Shown here piece by piece: positions 38,304 to 47,264 of a stretch of DNA of 51,715 nucleotides. The DNA is taken from positions 1 through 51,715 of the forward strand of contig JABABK010000021.1 of assembly GCA_014238285.1 (NCBI GenBank), written 5' to 3'. The position numbers were made by a program, and so were the translations under genes. The DNA comes from Hellea sp. GTDB taxonomy: Bacteria; Pseudomonadota; Alphaproteobacteria; Caulobacterales; Maricaulaceae. Numbering within the stretch: position 1 is the first letter of the stretch; each line of letters opens with the position of its first letter. The notes under the pieces were generated by a model. That model worked only from the letters and a program-made list of their open reading frames with translations, had not been told where the DNA came from and did not search any database.

Positions 38304-38862
38304 TATGAAAATTGATTTGGGCGTCGAAATCCCTGAAGTCCTGCAAAGCGGACCTGTTACAGCAGAGCTACTCGGTGAAAAGGTACGCCTGTCATTAAGA
38401 GTGAAATCCGCTGATCGCACAGTTGTCGCCAAAGCACTTGGTTTGACTCTGCCAGCTAAGATCGGGGTAGCCAGCACTAAAGCCGACCTTATGACGGCTT
38501 GTCTCGGGCCGGATGAATGGATCGTCATTGGCGAAACAGACAAACACGCTGGGCTCTATGAAAAGGCACACAAGCTCTCGACCAAATATGTCATGAGTGT
38601 CACTGATGTGTCCTACAGAAATATTGGGGTTGTCCTAACGGGCCAGGCGGCCGCAGAAATGGTCAATGTCGGTTGCCCGCTTGACCTATGCCTCGAAGCG
38701 TTTCCGGTTGGAAAATGTACGCGGACCGTTTATGAAGCTTCGCCAATCCTATTGCACCGCACAGGCGAAGATAGTTTCGTCATGGAATGCTGGCGATCAT
38801 TCGCGCCCTATATGATCGGATTGATGGCGGCCCATGCTCGGGGAGGGTTTCGCTCAAACTAA
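38293..38862 (+). CDS. soxG: sarcosine oxidase, gamma subunit
   Basis: The 189-residue protein is the gamma subunit of sarcosine oxidase, a small GcvT-fold relative without its own catalytic site. Recognisable parts are PDEWIVIG, YVMSVTDVSYRNIGVVLTGQAAAEMVNVGCPLDL and FPVGKCTRTVYEASPILLHR. It starts inside soxA (11-bp overlap) behind GGGGAG, and completes soxBDAG. Its end overlaps the convergent subtilase-like gene by about 4 bp. Confidence 0.92.
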   Translation: MSYDMKIDLGVEIPEVLQSGPVTAELLGEKVRLSLRVKSADRTVVAKALGLTLPAKIGVASTKADLMTACLGPDEWIVIGETDKHAGLYEKAHKLSTKYVMSVTDVSYRNIGVVLTGQAAAEMVNVGCPLDLCLEAFPVGKCTRTVYEASPILLHRTGEDSFVMECWRSFAPYMIGLMAAHARGGFRSN

Positions 38863-40616
38863 TTAGGGCCGAAATATCCACCGCCAAATCCACCGCCTCC
38901 ATTGTTGCAGCTTTCAGCTGAGAAGATGTGTGTCTGGTAGTTTGACCAACCAGATGCGCTTAAATGTCTGACGCGCATCGTAACTGAACTATTGCTAGGA
39001 AACGAAACTGATCGGCTTTTTTGACGAGTTACTCCGACACTTGTCCAACCGCCATTCCCTATTTTATACTGGAAATCATATTGGCGGATCGTGCCTTTGG
39101 TGAATGCTTGAAGGATATGTTGCGCTGAACTGCCAGTGCAATACAAAAATTCTTCAAATAATAACATGGGGGAGGGCAAGGTTTCTATGTCACCTCCGTT
39201 ACCGGCGAACAGAATCCTAGTGCAAACATCAGATGTAATGGTTCCCGTATCGTCAAATGTGAGGATGCATCCTGGCCCAAAGTTGGGAGTGTCACTTAAG
39301 ACGGGATAGGTAATGGGAATTGTAGTCGTACCAATGTTGTTATTTGAGTCGGTAATTTGCAATGTTACCGAAGACGGTTTTTGACTGATATATGATGTTC
39401 CTTTTACAGGTCCAATCACCATAGATATTGCTTTACTTCCATTTTGTTCCTGAAAAGACATTGTAGGACTCACAGACCAGTTACGATTTACGATAACACC
39501 TTCGATCTTGCTGGCATCTTCAATTGTTAGCGTCAGTGGCTGTAGTTGTAAGGTCACACAGCCCCATTTCCAATTAACTACAGGGTCACATCCTGCTATG
39601 GGTACAATTTTTTGTAGATTTGAAATTGAATAAGTTAAACGGGGCTCTAGAGCGACTATAGGTACGCCAGAAAGCGCCCCGTCCAAGTCTACTCTTTGAT
39701 AGTGAATTTGATCGTTTGAATTTAAATATGCACCGAGAGCAGACATTCCGGTCGAGCTGGATAATGCTGACCGTACCTGGGTAAATGTCAGGTTCGGATT
39801 TAGATTGCGCATCTCTGCGATAATTCCAGCGACACGCGGAGCAGCAAATGAAGTGCCGCAGGCTTTCCCTTCAGAATAGCTGTATCCCGGTGCGCAGCCA
39901 AATTCGACATAGAAATTTTCTGGACCGTTTGAGGCCTCTGGTGCATTGGAGGTGCACATCAGTTGAATTGAGACCCGTTGTTCGAACGGTAAGATGTCAC
40001 AAGGACCCGGCCCGGGTTTGAATCCTGAACCAACAGCAATTGTATCTGAACGCGCAGCTAATCCATTCATTCCGAAACCTGATGTTTGTGGGTTAAACCC
40101 ATTTAAGCCATTATTTCCAGTTGAGTTTATAATTGTGACTTTGTGAGTGTTGTTGAATGCCGAATATTGTGCTGACGTAAAAGTACTTGAATTTGCATCA
40201 TGAACTAGAACAAATGACGCAATTCTTTCAGCCATAGCGTTGCTCGCAACCCAATTTATTTTCGCCTGAATATCGGGGCCAGTTAACATGATGACGTCTA
40301 CATTTGTTGTACCTTCTAAAGCGGAGGCAGCTGAAGCCCATGGATGAAATGTTGTTGAAATATTAGGGTTGGCCGTTGCACCGCTTGTTGTTCTAGTTGT
40401 GCATTGACCGCTTGCGCAATATAGATATTTGTGAACTTTGCATCCGCTGGAGCCAGCGGTTGCGCCAGGTACGGTGCAGTTTCCTAGAATATCGGGGCGA
40501 GATTTAAAATCGAAATTTTCAACTACATCTGAAATCGCAACCCGCTGTCTGTTTTGTGCAAAGGCATCGGGAACCAATAATGAATAAACTAATACAAAAA
40601 ATACCAAATACCGCAT
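38859..40616 (-). CDS. secreted subtilase-like protein with degenerate active site
   Basis: The 585-residue protein has a signal peptide (cleavage after AFA, residue 20) and a subtilisin-like core. The serine box GTSFAAPRVAG (254-264, Ser256) and an oxyanion-Asn-like STGNNG (165-170) are clear. I could not find the Asp box (DTG-like) or the His box (HGT-like) in their usual places upstream, so it may not be an active protease. Cysteine pairs (CTVP..C, YCASGQC) suggest disulfides. The second half is beta-rich, possibly Ig-like, ending in a glycine-rich tail (GGGGFGGGYFGPN). It is transcribed alone, toward soxG. A binding or maturation role is possible. Confidence 0.72.
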   Translation of the reverse strand: MRYLVFFVLVYSLLVPDAFAQNRQRVAISDVVENFDFKSRPDILGNCTVPGATAGSSGCKVHKYLYCASGQCTTRTTSGATANPNISTTFHPWASAASALEGTTNVDVIMLTGPDIQAKINWVASNAMAERIASFVLVHDANSSTFTSAQYSAFNNTHKVTIINSTGNNGLNGFNPQTSGFGMNGLAARSDTIAVGSGFKPGPGPCDILPFEQRVSIQLMCTSNAPEASNGPENFYVEFGCAPGYSYSEGKACGTSFAAPRVAGIIAEMRNLNPNLTFTQVRSALSSSTGMSALGAYLNSNDQIHYQRVDLDGALSGVPIVALEPRLTYSISNLQKIVPIAGCDPVVNWKWGCVTLQLQPLTLTIEDASKIEGVIVNRNWSVSPTMSFQEQNGSKAISMVIGPVKGTSYISQKPSSVTLQITDSNNNIGTTTIPITYPVLSDTPNFGPGCILTFDDTGTITSDVCTRILFAGNGGDIETLPSPMLLFEEFLYCTGSSAQHILQAFTKGTIRQYDFQYKIGNGGWTSVGVTRQKSRSVSFPSNSSVTMRVRHLSASGWSNYQTHIFSAESCNNGGGGFGGGYFGPN

Positions 40617-40779
40617 AGGGACGCTCCATGTAATGTGGTGTGATGTAGTTATGTATCAGAAATTGATGCTTATTAACAGTCTTAAGTTTATAAAAGTTCT
40701 ATAAAGTCAAATTTGGTTGGAATAGTATATAAAGAGCCATCATCATTCGATACAAATAAATCGCATAGTGCTAGGGTCC

Positions 40780-41685
40780 TCATCCCATAATAACCCCCGC
40801 CGCGTCCCGCATAACCTGCCCAATCTTTTCGAATTTCTGCGAAAGCGGTGAACTTTGGCGCCAAATCAGACTGACCTGTCTTTTGGCGATAGGATGGTCG
40901 ACCCGGCGGACGATGAGTTCGGGGTCGCGTTTGGCTTCTGAGATAGCATAGAGACTTGGCAATATGCCGACGCCGCTTCCCATTGAGGCCATTTGCCGAA
41001 TGGCATCAAAACTGGTGCCGTGATATTCATCCTGTATGGACGCGCCTGATAAATGAGCCAGGTTCATGACAAAGCTTGTAAATTTATGGCCATACCCAAG
41101 CGTCAGAAGTTCCCGGTCCTTGAGAGCTTCCATATTGATCGGTGATTTATCACCGGCCAGCTCGTCATCTGGCGCAACGCAGATGTAGATATTTTCTTCC
41201 ACGATGGGTAATTGGCGCGTGTCTTTATGATGTTCCGATGTTGATAGGATGGCGTCGCAACTGCCATTGGACAGATAGTCTGTCAGATCGCTAATGCGGG
41301 CTTCGCGGACTGCGAGCCTCAAATCTGGATAGGCTGCATGAAGCTTTCGTGTTGCTCGCGGCAATAGATAGGGGCCAATGGAGGGCAGAACGCCGAGCTT
41401 AACGCGCCCGGCAAGACTACCATCGGATTCCCGGGCCAAGACCTTCATCTCTTCTATATGGGTTAAGACTATACGCGCTCTTATGACGAGCTCTTCGCCT
41501 ATTGGGGTTAAGATAGCGCCGTGGCGCCCACGCTCTATTAACTGCGCGCCAACATGAAACTCCATGTCCTTAACTTGGGTCGATAGGCTCGGCTGGCTGA
41601 CATGGGTGCGTTTGGCCGCCTCGCTGAATGTGCCCGTTTCGGCAATGGCCACTAAATATTCTAATTGTCTCAATGTCGGTTTCAT
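40780..41685 (-). CDS. LysR-family regulator, OxyR-like but without the redox cysteines
   Basis: The 301-residue protein has the LysR HTH (FSEAAKRTHVSQPSLSTQVKDMEFHVGAQLIERG) and a C-terminal domain resembling OxyR: GVLPSIGPYLLPRATRKLH, LLTLGYGHKF and GTSFDAIRQMASMGSGVGILPSLYAI. In E. coli OxyR, Cys199 (GHC) and Cys208 sense peroxide; the matching positions here are Lys201 and Ala210 by eye alignment. It therefore cannot use that disulfide switch. It is divergent from the mini-gene array at 41794, and the 108-bp region between contains an OxyR-type box at 41698. Autoregulation and control of the array are likely; the signal is unknown. Confidence 0.87.
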   Translation of the reverse strand: MKPTLRQLEYLVAIAETGTFSEAAKRTHVSQPSLSTQVKDMEFHVGAQLIERGRHGAILTPIGEELVIRARIVLTHIEEMKVLARESDGSLAGRVKLGVLPSIGPYLLPRATRKLHAAYPDLRLAVREARISDLTDYLSNGSCDAILSTSEHHKDTRQLPIVEENIYICVAPDDELAGDKSPINMEALKDRELLTLGYGHKFTSFVMNLAHLSGASIQDEYHGTSFDAIRQMASMGSGVGILPSLYAISEAKRDPELIVRRVDHPIAKRQVSLIWRQSSPLSQKFEKIGQVMRDAAGVIMG

Positions 41686-41697
41686 GAAATTTGTATA

Positions 41698-41716
41698 CCA
41701 TAGTTTAAAACTATGG
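41698..41716. promoter_or_regulatory. OxyR-type operator between the LysR gene and the mini-gene array
   Basis: CCATAGTTT-A-AAACTATGG is a perfect inverted repeat. Its inner 15 bp, ATAGTTTAAAACTAT (41700-41714), match the OxyR half-site consensus ATAGnTnnnAnCTAT at every defined position. A weaker AT-rich second site follows (ATAGTTA/TAACTAT at 41727-41745). It lies 13 bp from the LysR start codon. Confidence 0.75.
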
Positions 41717-41793
41717 GAAATATATAATAGTTATATTTTAACTATGTAAAAAATTCCGCCATACATCAATCATCAACACAACGGAGAACAAAA

Positions 41794-41931
41794 ATGAAAA
41801 TCGAGAGAACAACAACTGAAATCAATACAGCAGTAGACCAGCCGGTCAGCGCATTATCACGTCGCCGCAGACGTCAGCGCCGGTATTACGGTGTTTCAAC
41901 TGGGACAGCCATAAAGACAACCTGGTTCTAA
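41794..41931 (+). CDS. arginine-rich mini-protein, copy 1 (45 aa)
   Basis: The frame begins MKIERTTTEINTAV, has a core RRRRRQRRY, then GVSTGTAI and the end KTTWF. CGGAG at 41782 lies about 7 bp before the ATG. There is no signal peptide or cysteine. The neighbouring copy has the same layout with synonymous and conservative changes, which supports translation. A hairpin (AGTGGG at 41939/CCCACT at 41957) follows the stop. It lies 78 bp from the OxyR-type box and is the first gene of the array. Possibilities are a peptide modified after translation, a nucleic-acid-binding peptide or a leader-like regulator; none is shown by sequence, and no maturation enzyme lies beside it. Confidence 0.72.
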   Translation: MKIERTTTEINTAVDQPVSALSRRRRRQRRYYGVSTGTAIKTTWF

Positions 41932-41989
41932 ACGAAAGAGTGGGCGCGATATAACTCCCACTGAGATGTATCAATAAACGGAGACAAAC

Positions 41990-42130
41990 ATGACAATCGA
42001 GAGAGCAACAACAACATATTCAAATACAGCCGTAGAAGAGTCTAGCAGCGCGATGTTACGCCGCCGCAGACGTCAGCGCCGATACCACGGCGTTACAACC
42101 GGGGCTACGCTAAAGACAACTTGGTTCTAA
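41990..42130 (+). CDS. arginine-rich mini-protein, copy 2 (46 aa)
   Basis: This paralogue of the frame at 41794 starts MTIERATTTYSNTAVEESSSAM, continues RRRRRQRRYHGV, then TTGATL and KTTWF. The C-terminal part agrees almost fully with copy 1, while the N-terminal 20 residues differ more, and many codon changes are silent (CGT/CGC, ACC/ACT). Such a pattern is expected of protein-level selection on the C-terminal half. ACGGAG precedes the ATG by about 6 bp, as in copy 1. A strong hairpin terminator at 42152 follows the stop. Confidence 0.75.
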   Translation: MTIERATTTYSNTAVEESSSAMLRRRRRQRRYHGVTTGATLKTTWF

Positions 42131-42151
42131 GTAAAAGGACCGAGGCGTGAG

Positions 42152-42184
42152 ATAACTCGCTCGGGGCAGGGCGAGTTATTTTAT
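42152..42184 (+). terminator. terminator after mini-gene copy 2
   Basis: ATAACTCGC (42152-42160), loop TCGGGGCAGG, GCGAGTTAT (42171-42179) form a perfect 9-bp stem followed by TTTAT. It separates copy 2 from copy 3. Confidence 0.8.
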
Positions 42185-42255
42185 ACAAAATATTATAACG
42201 CAACGTTTGAGGCAGTTTTGGAAACACTCAAATATCTCATTCAACCGAGATAAAA

Positions 42256-42395
42256 ATGACAATCGAGAGAGCAAAACAGAATATTCAAACACAACCGTAG
42301 AAGAGACAATCAACACCGTGTTGCGTCGTCGCAGACGTTAGCGCCGGTATCACGGTGCCATAGGTGGGGCTACGCTCTGAACCATTTGGTTCTAG
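42256..42395 (+). pseudogene. decayed third copy of the arginine-rich mini-gene
   Basis: The start MTIERA and the coding trace of the RRRRR run and final TGGTTC-stop are retained, but against copy 2 there is a 1-bp deletion after the sixth codon, giving an early TAG after 14 codons. In the restored frame the Gln codon after the Arg run is TAG and the Lys of the KTTWF end is replaced by a stop (CTCTGA). Three inactivating changes make this a broken copy. Confidence 0.8.
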
Positions 42396-42412
42396 GCGTA
42401 GTGGGCGCCCGG

Positions 42413-42445
42413 TAACCCGCTCTGGGTGGGCAGAGCGGGTTATTT
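42413..42445 (+). terminator. terminator after mini-gene copy 3
   Basis: TAACCCGCTCTG (42413-42424), loop GGTGGG, CAGAGCGGGTTA (42431-42442) give a perfect 12-bp stem followed by TTT. It closes the array, 174 bp before the NACHT gene. Confidence 0.88.
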
Positions 42446-42618
42446 CTGCGTAAGGTAATGCGGAATAGTTTAGTATTGAGGGCCAATGGCTATGCTGGTT
42501 AACGGAATAGCTAAGAATGTGACCCAATTGACTTTGCCGACCTTGTCTCGTCAATAAAACTTGTGTTTTGGATTTAAAAGACCGAACATCAAGAATATGA
42601 ATATACAATTCGGGGATT

Positions 42619-44583
42619 ATGTTGATCGAACCAACATCTACAGTGGCTGTCGTTGCGGCAAGCAAAGCATACAATACGGCAAAGGGTTTTTGGGATAGGC
42701 TAAAGCCTTCAACCAAAGCCTTGATTTGGACGAAGCTTGAAAAGCACTTCACCAATTTTTCCGAATATTTAGAGCGCACTTATGAGCGGGCCTCGACGGT
42801 GCAATTAATATGCTCGCGGTCGATCAATTCAAATATAGAAGATATTTATGTCTCCACCTATTTTGTTAAGAGACATGGACACGATAAACCGATTTCTGAC
42901 AACGATTTGATCAGCGATATTCGCGACGGAAAAAGAGTCGTAATTCGGGGAAATGGCGGGTCTGGAAAAACGCTTTTTATGAAGCGTTTATGGTTAGATG
43001 TTTTCAATGAACCCAAGGGAAAAATTCCAGTGATGATTGAACTACGCAAGTTTAATCAATTCTCAGACATCAACATCACAACACTTATTCGAAACGCGCT
43101 GTCGACGACAAAAACTATTTCCGAGGACCTGTTTGCAGAACTGGCTGTCGACGGAACTTTTTTTCTAGTCTTTGATGGGTTTGATGAAGTCGCTGTCGAG
43201 AGACGCGAAGAAGTTGAAGCTCAAATCTTAGAATTCGAACGGCTTTACAAAAAGTGTAATATCGTCGTTAGCAGTCGGCCCAACGAAAACTTTGTTGGCT
43301 GGCAAGTGTTTCATACCTACGATGTCTTACCGTTTAAACGCGAACAGACACTGGATTTGATTTCTAAAGCACCTCTGGATGAAGGATTGTTAAAGCGGTT
43401 CAAGGCTCTCATCTCGGATGATTTTTTTGATAAATATGACGAGTTTTTGTCGTCGCCCTTACTGGCTTTAATGATGCTCGTTACCTTTAAACGAAAAGGC
43501 GATATTTCAGATATATCTGATAATATAATTGAGTTTTACGATAATGCCTTTCATGCACTTTATTCAGAACATGATGCGATCAAAGAACAATTTAAACGTC
43601 CGCACTGTCTTAAGATCAATGACTTTCGTTTAGTGTTCTCTACATTTTGTCTTTTCAGTTACTACAAAGAGCGGTTTGAGTTCAAAGAAACTGAGATAAT
43701 CGAGCTTGTTGAGAAGTCCATTGAACACGTAAACTTGACCAAAAATGCAAATGACAAGATCTCGTGTTCTGTTGAGGAGTTTCTTCACGAAGTTTTTGAT
43801 GCTGTAAATTTGATGCGAAAAGATGGGATGTTATTTTCATTTATTCATCGGTCATTCCAAGAATATTTTGCGGCATATTGGATAATATTTGTCGATTCAA
43901 AAAGAACAGAGAGGTTATTTGGAGACTTGTGTCGAAGGCCGCAAGATAACGTTCTGAATCTGTGTTATCAAATGAACAAAAATAAAGTTGATCAGAGTTA
44001 TGTTTTGCCGTTTTATGATCGCCTTGTTTCGTCCGAACTAATGTTCAAGTCAAAACCACCCAATAAGTTTAGATGGCAATACCTAGAGAGTTACGGGTTT
44101 CAGGGTATATGGCAGTTGATTAAATCTAAAGACCCCGTCAGCGGGCACGTTATTCCCAAGATCATTTCAGGGTGGGATAACGGTGAAGTCGGCGTTTATT
44201 ATACCAATATGGATAGGCTAGTCTTTGAGGGCGCGCTTCGGAAAAAGTTTTTCCCAATCGTTAGCGACGGGCTTCTCGTGCCAAGGCCGGTGTGGTTGAT
44301 CAAGGACTATTATGACGAAAAGAACTTTCGTCATAAACGTCTTCAAGTCGAAGTTGACGCTAATGAAATTTCGCTCAAACTATATCACAATGCAGATGAT
44401 TTCGAGGATGTGACGGCCAAATACCTAGAAGGAAATGACAAGTATCGAACAAAGTTGGAAAACACGTTAGATCAGATAGAAGATATGCTTCATGATTTAA
44501 ATAAGATGGTCAATTTACATATATCAACTATTCGGCAGGGCCATAATGCTTCAGAAAAGAATTTGGATGAAATGTTTTTCTGA
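42619..44583 (+). CDS. NACHT-domain STAND NTPase (bNACHT-type, possible anti-phage defence)
   Basis: The 654-residue protein has a short helical N-terminus, then a NACHT NTPase: Walker A GNGGSGKT (111-118), Walker B FFLVFDGFDE (181-190) with the doubled acidic pattern DGFDE, SSRPNENF sensor and the winged-helix-side HRSFQEYFAAYW (410-421), a stretch characteristic of NACHT proteins. Bacterial NACHT proteins have been shown to act in phage defence. The remaining 230 residues have no recognised repeat or effector domain and end in a coiled region. The ATG follows GGGGA closely. A lipoprotein gene starts 3 bp after its stop. Defence function is family-level inference. Confidence 0.85.
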   Translation: MLIEPTSTVAVVAASKAYNTAKGFWDRLKPSTKALIWTKLEKHFTNFSEYLERTYERASTVQLICSRSINSNIEDIYVSTYFVKRHGHDKPISDNDLISDIRDGKRVVIRGNGGSGKTLFMKRLWLDVFNEPKGKIPVMIELRKFNQFSDINITTLIRNALSTTKTISEDLFAELAVDGTFFLVFDGFDEVAVERREEVEAQILEFERLYKKCNIVVSSRPNENFVGWQVFHTYDVLPFKREQTLDLISKAPLDEGLLKRFKALISDDFFDKYDEFLSSPLLALMMLVTFKRKGDISDISDNIIEFYDNAFHALYSEHDAIKEQFKRPHCLKINDFRLVFSTFCLFSYYKERFEFKETEIIELVEKSIEHVNLTKNANDKISCSVEEFLHEVFDAVNLMRKDGMLFSFIHRSFQEYFAAYWIIFVDSKRTERLFGDLCRRPQDNVLNLCYQMNKNKVDQSYVLPFYDRLVSSELMFKSKPPNKFRWQYLESYGFQGIWQLIKSKDPVSGHVIPKIISGWDNGEVGVYYTNMDRLVFEGALRKKFFPIVSDGLLVPRPVWLIKDYYDEKNFRHKRLQVEVDANEISLKLYHNADDFEDVTAKYLEGNDKYRTKLENTLDQIEDMLHDLNKMVNLHISTIRQGHNASEKNLDEMFF

Positions 44584-44586
44584 TCA

Positions 44587-45504
44587 ATGAAGGAAAAGAC
44601 CGTGATAAGATATATTTTAGTTAGTCTTGGCCTTAGTTTGATGGCTTGTAACGGGGCTAATGCACCTGATGATGCTCCCGCTGAACCAACGGAGTGGACA
44701 GCTTGGAAACAGAGCGGAGAGGACGGCTACGTAAATGATGACCTCGCTGTTTTGAAGGCTGTTGACTATCGTTATATTCCTGTGGGAGCAGCAGTCTTTG
44801 TTTCTCGGCGTGATAGTGGTTATGCGCTGATAGTTGATGACACAGAAGCTTATGTCGTCAAGGCTAGTTTAGAGCCCGATAACTTATGCGTCTTGTCAGG
44901 TGAGGATCAAAGCCACTATCGTTACGCCGACCTACCAACCGATCCAATCCTTTTATCTGAAACTCAAAGGCTACGGTTCAATTTAGAGAATATCACGCAT
45001 GAAGAAAAACGGGTGAGGGCTATTTTATATGATGATAACGCGCCTGAGCTTAAAGGTTTTCCCGGGCTTACTTACTTCCCTTACGATCAATCCGGCGTTG
45101 TTACGGCGACGTTTAAGGCTGATCCTAACGTTCCGGAAATCATTCTAGATACCGAGCGGGGATTAACTAAGGCGTTTTACCGCTTGGGCTTTGCTAAGTT
45201 TTCGATCAGCGGTGAAGATTATGAAATGCCCCTATATACGGGGACCACAAACCCAGACGAAATCGATAGTTTTTTCACGGGGTTTGTAGATGATACAACA
45301 GGCGCGGAAACTTATGGAACAGGGCGTTATGTGCCGATATCAGGTTTTGGGAGCTTTCCACCAAAGACCTTGAAGATCGACTTTAATTACGCCTATAATC
45401 CCTATTGCGCCAGGTCCAGGGCCTATAATTGTCCCGTCATTTCATTTGCCATTAACGCGCCAATGCGCTTTGGTGAATCCTATGGCAAAAAAGAAAAAAA
45501 CTAA
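44587..45504 (+). CDS. DUF1684 lipoprotein
   Basis: The 305-residue protein has a lipoprotein signal (VSLGLSLMAC, lipidation at Cys21). The C-terminal part DFNYAYNPYCARSRAYNCPVISFAINAPMRFGE is the DUF1684 signature, and FVDDTTGAETYGTGRYVPI precedes it as usual. The family function is unknown. It begins 3 bp after the NACHT stop, so the two may be co-transcribed; whether they cooperate is unclear. It overlaps the next membrane-protein gene by 23 bp. Confidence 0.75.
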   Translation: MKEKTVIRYILVSLGLSLMACNGANAPDDAPAEPTEWTAWKQSGEDGYVNDDLAVLKAVDYRYIPVGAAVFVSRRDSGYALIVDDTEAYVVKASLEPDNLCVLSGEDQSHYRYADLPTDPILLSETQRLRFNLENITHEEKRVRAILYDDNAPELKGFPGLTYFPYDQSGVVTATFKADPNVPEIILDTERGLTKAFYRLGFAKFSISGEDYEMPLYTGTTNPDEIDSFFTGFVDDTTGAETYGTGRYVPISGFGSFPPKTLKIDFNYAYNPYCARSRAYNCPVISFAINAPMRFGESYGKKEKN

Positions 45505-46264
45505 GGCAAAAGATAAGACGAGGCGAAAGGTTGTATCGCCAATAGCTAAGAAAGTTGGCGCTTTAACGCTTGGCATGTATTTGCCGGGACCGATACAGAT
45601 TCACTTTCGGTATATCCGCAATAATTTGAAATTGTGGGTCGCGCTTTTCGTGGCACCGTTTATGGCGATCAAGTTATCGCTTATCGCGCTGTTTGCCCTA
45701 TTAGCTGAAGATGGGACGGGGGCGTGGAAATATGACTTGATCGCCATTTTTTGTGTGGGGTTGATGTTTTACCTTGCTGAGCGCAATCGGGACTTTCGAC
45801 GATTCTATGTTTATTTCGTGCCCGCAGTTATGGCTGCGTCCCTGCTTTATTGGGTCTGGGGCAGTAGCAATTTCCTAAGCGCTGAATTCGCCGTCAAGCT
45901 CGTATTGTGCGGTGTTTTGACTTTCAAAGTGGGTAATTACATTATCGAAGACGGTTATCAGCAACTGAGCGAAGGGGCTGACAAAAACTTCCATCAAGGC
46001 CGAATTCATTACGATCTTCAGGAGTATGACCTTGCGATTCCATTTTTGGAAAAGTCTGCCAAGCGTGGTCATTTTAAAAGTATATACCTATTAGCTGAGG
46101 CTCATGAATTTGGATATCATTACCCAGTTGACCGAGTCAAAGCCGCCAAATATTTTCTAAAGTCCGGTAAAAAAGGATATCGTAAGGCTACGCTGCGCTA
46201 TCAAAGCTTACTAGATGTATTGACGCCTGACGAAAGATCTGAGTTTGATAATTATTTGATTTGA
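45482..46264 (+). CDS. membrane protein with C-terminal Sel1/TPR-like repeats
   Basis: The 260-residue protein has a lysine-rich N-terminus (MAKKKKTKAKDKTRRK), about four membrane segments (LWVALFVAPFMAIKLSLIALFAL, YDLIAIFCVGLMFYL, FVPAVMAASLLYWVWG, FAVKLVLCGVLTFKVG) and a soluble C-terminal region with Sel1-like helices: GRIHYDLQEYDLAIPFLEKSAKRGH and YPVDRVKAAKYFLKSGKKGYRKA. The ATG at 45482 was preferred over an in-frame ATG 36 bp upstream because the lysine-rich start looks natural; it overlaps the lipoprotein gene by 23 bp. The repeats suggest protein binding at the inner membrane. No family name is certain. Confidence 0.7.
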   Translation: MAKKKKTKAKDKTRRKVVSPIAKKVGALTLGMYLPGPIQIHFRYIRNNLKLWVALFVAPFMAIKLSLIALFALLAEDGTGAWKYDLIAIFCVGLMFYLAERNRDFRRFYVYFVPAVMAASLLYWVWGSSNFLSAEFAVKLVLCGVLTFKVGNYIIEDGYQQLSEGADKNFHQGRIHYDLQEYDLAIPFLEKSAKRGHFKSIYLLAEAHEFGYHYPVDRVKAAKYFLKSGKKGYRKATLRYQSLLDVLTPDERSEFDNYLI

Positions 46265-46270
46265 AACGGA

Positions 46271-47107
46271 TTATTTTTCTTCATATTTAATTGTGACAGA
46301 GGCGCATAACTTGCCCGCTTGATGCATTGTAAGACCGATAGTGTTTTCGGCGCGACGGTCATCGGTCAGTGTGATTTCAAATGGATGATCCAGTTCAACA
46401 AAGCGGTTAAATTCCATGGTCCCACCAGTGCAGTGTAGTGCCGCCCCATCATTCAAAAGACACGCGAATTGCAGCCCGACATCGGCTAAGTGCGTGGCGT
46501 TGACATGATCGCCAGATCCCGAGATATGGCGATGGACCGGGATAAATCCGTTATCTTTGGTTATGTAAGCCATCGCGGAAATGCTTTTACCAGTGATGAA
46601 CGGGGAGAGATAGCTCTCTTGCTGTAACTCGGCTCCTGTCATTTCAGCGGGTGCATACTCAAATTTTTGAATTTTGGGAAGTTTAGCCATTTTGGCCTTG
46701 GCTTTTCCGCGCCAGGTTTCAAAGTCACGGTTTTGAAATACAACGCCGCTACCGCTTATGATGTAAACGATTCGATCTTTTTCATCATAATAGGTGACCT
46801 TATAGTCCATTCTCCGTGATTCATCAGTAGGCTCAGCGATGCCTCTGACAGCGTGTCCTACGCCAGATTTACCGCAGCTCCATTCTGTTATAGTTAGAGC
46901 CGTCCATTTGTTTCGATCAAAAGTACCCTTGGTTTCACCTGTCTCAACCGGTACCCAGTAATTGATGGTTTGAACAACAATAGGATCATGAGGCGGTAAG
47001 GCGAGCCACGGCCATGTTTTTAGATCTGATGAGCACTCAAATGCCATAGAACCGTCATCGAGGAGTTGGTGGTTGTGCGTGAATCTGTTTGTGATCGGTT
47101 TTGGCAT
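46271..47107 (-). CDS. protein of unknown function (possible hot-dog fold)
   Basis: The 278-residue protein is soluble, with no signal peptide. Notable stretches are HNHQLLDDGSMAFECSSDLKTWPWLALPPHD near the start, YKVTYYDEKDRIVYIISGSGVVFQNRDF and HRHISGSGDHVNATHLADVGLQFACLL, which looks like a long helix of a hot-dog thioesterase or dehydratase fold, with candidate polar His/Asp residues. I do not recognise the family. The ATG at 47107 is used; TTG at 47122 is an alternative and neither has a good ribosome-binding site. It stands alone on the - strand, convergent with the Sel1-like gene. Confidence 0.6.
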   Translation of the reverse strand: MPKPITNRFTHNHQLLDDGSMAFECSSDLKTWPWLALPPHDPIVVQTINYWVPVETGETKGTFDRNKWTALTITEWSCGKSGVGHAVRGIAEPTDESRRMDYKVTYYDEKDRIVYIISGSGVVFQNRDFETWRGKAKAKMAKLPKIQKFEYAPAEMTGAELQQESYLSPFITGKSISAMAYITKDNGFIPVHRHISGSGDHVNATHLADVGLQFACLLNDGAALHCTGGTMEFNRFVELDHPFEITLTDDRRAENTIGLTMHQAGKLCASVTIKYEEK

Positions 47108-47264
47108 AGGATTAGATCGCAAATGATGGAAGCTCTGGCAACGAACTTATGATAAATTTAAGTTCTAATGACCACTATTAATTGTCAGTGCCGCCGCAGA
47201 TAGAGGACTAGCCACAAGGACGGTTGCCTGATAGATCGTCAGCTTCTTTTGATGGAGGCGCTTT

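Follow-up and report, generated by a model that had tools for sequence, protein, structure and literature searches.

The window, i.e., the whole stretch of 51,715 nucleotides that was analysed, contains a cluster of three short units, which we class as genes for an arginine-rich small protein under a LysR-type regulator. The features of the locus are as follows:

40780..41685, minus strand: OxyR-group LysR-type regulator lacking the peroxidatic cysteine, divergent from the mini-genes
41700..41745, plus strand: putative composite regulator box, ATAG-N7-CTAT - N16 - TTATATTTTAACTAT, kept across loci
41794..41931, plus strand: small arginine-rich protein, copy 1 (45 aa, stop TAA; profile match E 1.9e-10; SD-like CGGAG upstream)
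41939..41963, plus strand: weak stem after copy 1, resembling the left part of the later hairpins (repeat family D4; z -1.2)
41990..42130, plus strand: small arginine-rich protein, copy 2 (46 aa, stop TAA; profile match E 4.5e-13; SD-like CGGAG upstream)
42147..42184, plus strand: terminator-like hairpin after copy 2 (MFE -22.2 kcal/mol, z -5.3; U-rich sequence 3')
42256..42395 (about), plus strand: copy 3, a broken pseudogene (early frameshift, in-frame stops; profile E 2.3e-8)
42411..42444, plus strand: hairpin after copy 3, resembling that of unit 2 (inverted repeat I2; z -3.1)

Copies 1 and 2 both start with M(K/T)IER and end with RRRRRQRRY..G...KTTWF, and are thus the two intact frames of 45-46 codons that a first-pass annotation of this DNA had described. 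The match to copy 3 (63% identity) reads across two in-frame stops, a TGA and a TAG, and the copy also carries an early frameshift. The three units are tandem repeats whose starts lie 196-201 and 260-266 nt apart, each unit spanning the ribosome-binding region and the downstream stem. Between copies 1 and 2, pS is 0.40 and pN 0.18, giving a ratio of 0.45 (Fisher p 0.014, on rounded counts) rather than the value near 1 that the first-pass annotation had named as evidence against a peptide. The corresponding values are pS 0.41 and pN 0.11 (p 0.009) for the C-terminal half and pS 0.39 and pN 0.25 (p 0.35) for the N-terminal half. Since pS exceeds pN significantly in the C-terminal half only, the comparison, which covers few sites, supports the earlier proposal that the C-terminal part is under selection as a peptide.

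A hairpin had also been noted behind each copy. This holds for units 2 and 3, but the stem behind unit 1 is weak. A terminator scan found 2 sites in the stretch, compared to 0.7 expected, and backs the hairpin after copy 2; no Rfam family scored above its gathering threshold. Because the stem of unit 1 is weak and the hairpin of unit 2 strong, transcription probably reads through from copy 1 to copy 2, such that the two would share one transcript.

The small protein belongs to a family. A single-sequence search of 99 genomes returned three matches within the genome of the window, and those in other genomes were weak (best 0.0063); reading the weak matches revealed short ORFs in relatives with the same ending. 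A family profile was therefore built from 20 members, and at E <= 1.6e-5 it detects members in 20 of the 137 genomes searched from the taxonomic family of the window organism, so the absence of homologues from related genomes, which the first-pass annotation had allowed for, is not what was found. The next matches follow at 9e-4; those at E >= 9e-4, the sole matches in 24 of the 44 genomes listed, were set aside as chance-like. The window's genome is the only one of the 137 with more than one copy at E <= 1e-4. Credible matches occur in 13 of 398 genomes of an order sample, all 13 from the family of the window organism. In a class-wide sample of 385 genomes, the only one with a match is the window's own, the other 384 having none. 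The peptide-bearing relatives with names are Hellea, Litorimonas and Algimonas, in addition to Caulobacterales/Hyphomonadaceae drafts. Eight order-sample genomes from another family (E 5.7e-7 to 3.6e-5) were left uncounted; the four that were read (L200, L201, L203 and L206) contain arginine-rich tails of longer proteins, in which a conserved frame of ~200-230 aa ends in an Arg run followed by ITSLFHAG and mimics the peptide profile.

Twenty-one members were compared. Their length ranges from 45 to 82 residues (49-82 outside the window), and all are basic (pI 10.6-12.0). Every one of them ends in (K/R)-x-x-W-x, with Trp at position -2 and Lys or Arg at -5, the final residue being F in 15, Y in 4 and A or S in the remaining two. 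In 16 members the densest run of Arg begins at -21 to -23, and in the other five at -25 to -31. Outside the window, 17 of 19 members begin with M(F/L)R and two with MFN. The longer members consist of M(F/L)R, a variable middle, which is probably disordered, the Arg cluster, a short linker and a (K/R)(T/S)(T/S/G)W(F/Y)-COOH tail; copies 1 and 2 are without the N-terminal part seen in these members. SD-like sites precede the starts of family members, and the start codons of three longer frames (L070, L103 and L076) were picked by the nearest such site. The ratio pN/pS is 0.31-0.64 across 10 pairs. The 21 genes stop with TAG (12) or TAA (9), and none with TGA.

In agreement with the first-pass annotation, which knew of no described family with this pattern, no library family scored above its cut-off in Pfam and PHROGs (20 members), NCBIfam (5 members) or PADLOC (the two window copies), and the weak matches (E 0.04-0.1) are at chance level. 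AlphaFold2 gave no confident fold for the family (pLDDT 61.8, pTM 0.18), and the open-licence literature searched on such proteins or their setting contained no description of it. Among the functions that had been suggested, a modified peptide found no support, as no RiPP maturation enzyme occurs among the Pfam matches of the window neighbours (38859-47122) and one relative's operon. A toxin is likewise unsupported: the protein is basic and shows no membrane segment by eye. An RNA/DNA-binding or signalling peptide is supported as an option.

The divergent gene matches LysR_substrate (3.3e-37) and HTH_1 (2.4e-19) in Pfam. Its nearest NCBIfam model is OxyR (199.5 bits, below the equivalog cut-off of 329) and its best solved relative is OxyR 4x6g; it thus has the LysR architecture with OxyR as the nearest family. 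The peroxidatic cysteine of OxyR sits in a GHC motif (C199 of E. coli). None of 80 aligned rows has a cysteine at this sensing column, which is occupied by K, R or another residue, and because of this peroxide sensing by the regulator appears unlikely. The term "OxyR-type" used in the first-pass annotation consequently suits the box and the regulator family but not the sensing column. The Lys that replaces the OxyR cysteine in all eight close orthologues prompted the idea of CO2 sensing through a carbamate; this was abandoned, given that the column holds a mixture of K, R, H and other residues and that a literature search found nothing on it.

Orthologues of the regulator are 60-70% identical, and most are divergent from the same peptide. 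The peptide gene is divergent from an orthologous regulator in 18 of the 20 genomes (in G039, from a regulator fragment only), and at the regulator loci its start lies ~100-118 nt from that of the regulator. An Arg/Lys-rich small ORF preceded by an SD-like site occupies the divergent slot in 26 of 39 regulator loci, compared to 25 of 3900 random stretches. Fifteen of the 26 belong to this family, nine are other proteins and two resemble DUF465; at Hyphomonas and other related loci the slot is filled by other Arg-rich small ORFs. The regulator occurs without a recognisable peptide in 26 of 45 genomes. In a quick tree of 52 regulators, which carried long-branch warnings, the 16 rows with an adjacent peptide fall inside one clade of 22 rows (SH-aLRT 99), and the adjacent-peptide label needs six changes on the tree. 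Two of the six other rows in this clade belong to genomes with the peptide elsewhere, namely G028 and G116 (regulator loci L107 and L071). Control of the small genes by the regulator is probable on this comparative evidence.

The palindromic half of the promoter box, ATAG-N7-CTAT, is located at 41700-41714, in front of the mini-genes as the first-pass annotation had reported, and the box is conserved across genomes. The bare motif is found twice in the window, compared to 0.42 expected; it is weak when taken alone, and becomes firm through its conservation across genomes. The full element covers 46 bp, composed of ATAG-N7-CTAT, 16 nt and then TTATATTTTANNTAT. A search of 18 of the 20 peptide genomes (G115 and G118 were left out) with up to 3 mismatches yielded 20 sites in 16 genomes, and the reversed control pattern yielded none. 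Sixteen of the sites are at the peptide gene, one is before the second small gene (gene 2, see below) in G028, and three are before genes for delta-class carbonic anhydrases (delta-CA); no box with <= 3 mismatches was found in G001 and G104. The pattern was drawn by eye from part of the loci, and matches there partly reflect this choice; it was drawn without the three delta-CA sites and without the peptide sites of G039, G040, G044, G102, G106, G120, G122 and G126. The window's genome has a single site, with 0 mismatches, namely the one in the window. The box is also kept before both peptide genes that are located away from the regulator (in G028 and G116).

The three delta-CA genes behind the composite box (L227 1639-2487, L228 1639-2487 and one on contig C97 of G028) code for lipoproteins; Pfam was run on two of them, and both contain PF10563 (match 1.3e-65). 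Delta-CA was found in 14 of 18 peptide genomes tested. In five of these 14, a box with <= 5 mismatches is located upstream, where shuffles never gave fewer than 7, and none was found in the other nine. In heterotrophic marine Caulobacterales, the box and the delta-CA genes probably represent a regulon for inorganic carbon. At four loci with more distant regulators of the same group (L035, L041, L042 and L100), the regulator is divergent from what we take, by eye, to be a carbonic-anhydrase-like gene with a SulP-like transporter gene behind it; L041 and L042 retain a box of similar sequence, again with a 16-nt spacer.

The nhaA gene occurs within 1.5 kb behind the peptide gene in 14 of 20 genomes, in several together with sbtA; the exceptions are the window's genome, G028, G040, G115 and G118, and the contig of G120 is too short to tell. 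Among nine peptide genomes tested, NhaA was found in eight and SbtA in five. Of 39 regulator loci, 28 have nhaA or sbtA no more than about 5 kb from the regulator. In G039 the operon continues with an amino-acid permease with a TrkA-C domain, sbtA and a PII protein, and the Pfam identities in one genome's operon are NhaA, AA_permease with TrkA_C, SbtA and P-II. In Henriciella and one Hyphomonas locus (L082, L083, L091 and L097), nhaA and/or sbtA are behind the regulator, on the regulator's own strand. Several genomes carry gene 2 between the peptide gene and nhaA (L004 1628-2074, L015 1743-1985 and L002 1024-1326); it has a conserved HP-AL-L-K/R-like end, and no Pfam family scored above cut-off in the two scanned (L004 and L002).

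Two genomes show that the elements of this arrangement are separable. In G028 the peptide gene has a box with 0 mismatches and a hairpin behind it, and no following gene on its strand; the regulator, gene 2 and nhaA are on a different contig. In G116 the regulator is on another contig, and the peptide and its box are still ahead of nhaA. Since both are drafts (73% and 96% complete, respectively), binning errors may have contributed.

In the window no transport gene follows the mini-genes, and searches of the window's genome, which is 95.6% complete, did not find NhaA, SbtA or delta-CA. The place of gene 2 and nhaA is occupied by a NACHT NTPase gene (42619-44583; Pfam 7.7e-9), which starts about 174 bp past the last hairpin, as had been noted; it bears a weak likeness to the anti-phage model NCBIfam NF053861 (40 bits of 790). 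No PADLOC defence model matches the NACHT gene or the mini-genes. A NACHT gene adjoins the peptide in only 1 of 20 genomes (the window's own) and in 0 of 39 regulator loci, so a tie between the NACHT gene and the peptide is unsupported, and a link to defence was dropped.

On balance we consider it probable that the mini-genes code for translated, regulator-controlled, mostly disordered basic small proteins that act in trans in a response to inorganic carbon, Na+ or pH. The divergent cysteine-free OxyR-like regulator would control transcription of the small genes at the composite box; we infer activation rather than repression. In relatives the box precedes nhaA/sbtA operons and some delta-CA genes, which makes low dissolved inorganic carbon, high pH or high Na+ the most likely signal. 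The bicarbonate link is not universal: SbtA was found in only part of the genomes tested (5 of 9), and no nhaA was found behind the gene in G040, G115 and G118. The small protein may act in trans, its Arg cluster binding an acidic or RNA partner and its C-terminal W-F tail serving as a putative docking site, and it could tune the response after transcription, comparable to the role of the unrelated DUF1127 proteins in phosphate uptake. Action in trans is suggested because the G028 gene stands alone and the window copies are without a transport gene, in a genome where NhaA, SbtA and delta-CA were not found. Against it, the peptide gene still precedes nhaA in most genomes (14 of 20), the next start being close in several, and the spacing from the Arg cluster to the stop would also suit an arrest peptide. 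In the window's genome, the peptide gene would have multiplied to three copies, one of which has decayed.

A leader or arrest peptide is the strongest of the alternatives, but we regard it as unlikely. The ribosome would stall at the W-F-stop, with the Arg cluster ~15-23 residues back inside the exit tunnel, and thereby set expression of the downstream operon. In arrest and leader peptides such as TnaC, the conservation is counted from the stop codon. The 21 members share this C-terminal register: the Arg start at -21 to -23 in 16 and Trp at -2 in all 21 are fixed relative to the stop, and the N-terminal length varies. In several loci the next start is 25-50 nt past the stop. In addition, TGA ends none of the 21 peptide genes, compared to 22 of 119 nearby genes (p about 0.014, uncorrected for kinship). 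However, unlike TnaC-type leaders, the peptide gene can stand without a target gene behind it, as in G028, where a hairpin follows instead, and in the window, where the two intact copies precede no transport gene; a leader that controls the next gene alone leaves these two cases unexplained. Moreover, the operon forms have no conserved hairpin between the peptide and the next gene, and conservation extends to the N-terminal M(F/L)R, which occurs in 17 of the 19 members from outside the window.

Still less likely, in our estimate, is that the family functions elsewhere and the window copies are decaying leftovers of a lost transport operon. The broken copy 3, the missing N-terminal part of copies 1 and 2 and the failure to find NhaA, SbtA and delta-CA in this genome are in keeping with such a relic, but the box without mismatches, the purifying signal in the C-terminal half, and the intact frames, SD-like sites and unit 2 hairpin argue against it. 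That the regulator activates short terminated transcripts, acting as dual-function or plain small RNAs in which the frame is secondary, appears very improbable: box-to-hairpin units of this kind are possible in the window and G028, and VtlR activates both a small RNA and small-protein genes (PMC7486931), but here silent sites diverge faster than amino-acid sites, the protein motif is retained across wide divergence and no Rfam family was matched.

What had been an orphan pair of mini-genes thus joins a family that comes with its own regulator, promoter box and probable physiological context and has no entry in the family libraries tried. The picture points to a dedicated switch for low carbon, pH and Na+ that a redox-blind relative of OxyR would operate in heterotrophic Alphaproteobacteria, and the small protein could be tested in the cultured Hellea balneolensis DSM 19091 (L069). 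A more specific version, which we consider doubtful, is that the C-terminal 21-23 residues, from the Arg cluster to Trp-Phe-COOH, are the readable part of the protein, which would itself act directly on the homeostasis of inorganic carbon and Na+/pH in heterotrophic marine bacteria and would be, here, the sole detected target of a carbon-responsive cysteine-free OxyR relative. If so, the regulon of the window's genome would be reduced to its mini-proteins.

Several known systems resemble parts of this arrangement. The cyanobacterial LysR-type regulators CcmR and CmpR control bicarbonate uptake genes (PMC3401165); they differ from the present regulator, the nearest solved and curated relatives of which are OxyR, and the abstract of that source mentions no small Arg-rich protein. 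OxyR, the nearest family, shares the ATAG-N7-CTAT half-sites, and its published site reads ATAG-N7-CTAT-N7-ATAG-N7-CTAT (PMC5720770); the last CTAT of the present box is 9 bp further out. The regulator further differs from OxyR in the lack of the sensing Cys and in its neighbours, which are Na+/H+ and bicarbonate genes. In the Rhizobiales, the LysR-type VtlR/LsrB directly activates small-protein genes (Atu1667, BAB1_0914) as well as the sRNA AbcR (PMC7486931). Both are alphaproteobacterial LysR-type regulators paired with small proteins, a likeness of arrangement; the VtlR box, GCAT-N3-TG-N3-T, has 6 matches in the window and none in the promoter (41686-41793), the box of which is OxyR-like instead.

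A parallel to the small protein itself is DUF1127 (YjiS) of Alphaproteobacteria and Enterobacteria, which, like the peptide family, is small, arginine-rich and tied to nutrient uptake; in both A. tumefaciens and E. coli, DUF1127 proteins bind PhoR, a sensor kinase (PMC12501420). DUF1127 (PF06568) matched none of the 20 members, nor one further member or eight other slot proteins, and a DUF1127 gene was found in none of 10 peptide genomes tested, where the same search was positive in 1 of 14 control genomes (E. coli). The peptide may, by analogy, work like a DUF1127 protein, but it is not one, and its C-terminal W-F tail sets the family apart.
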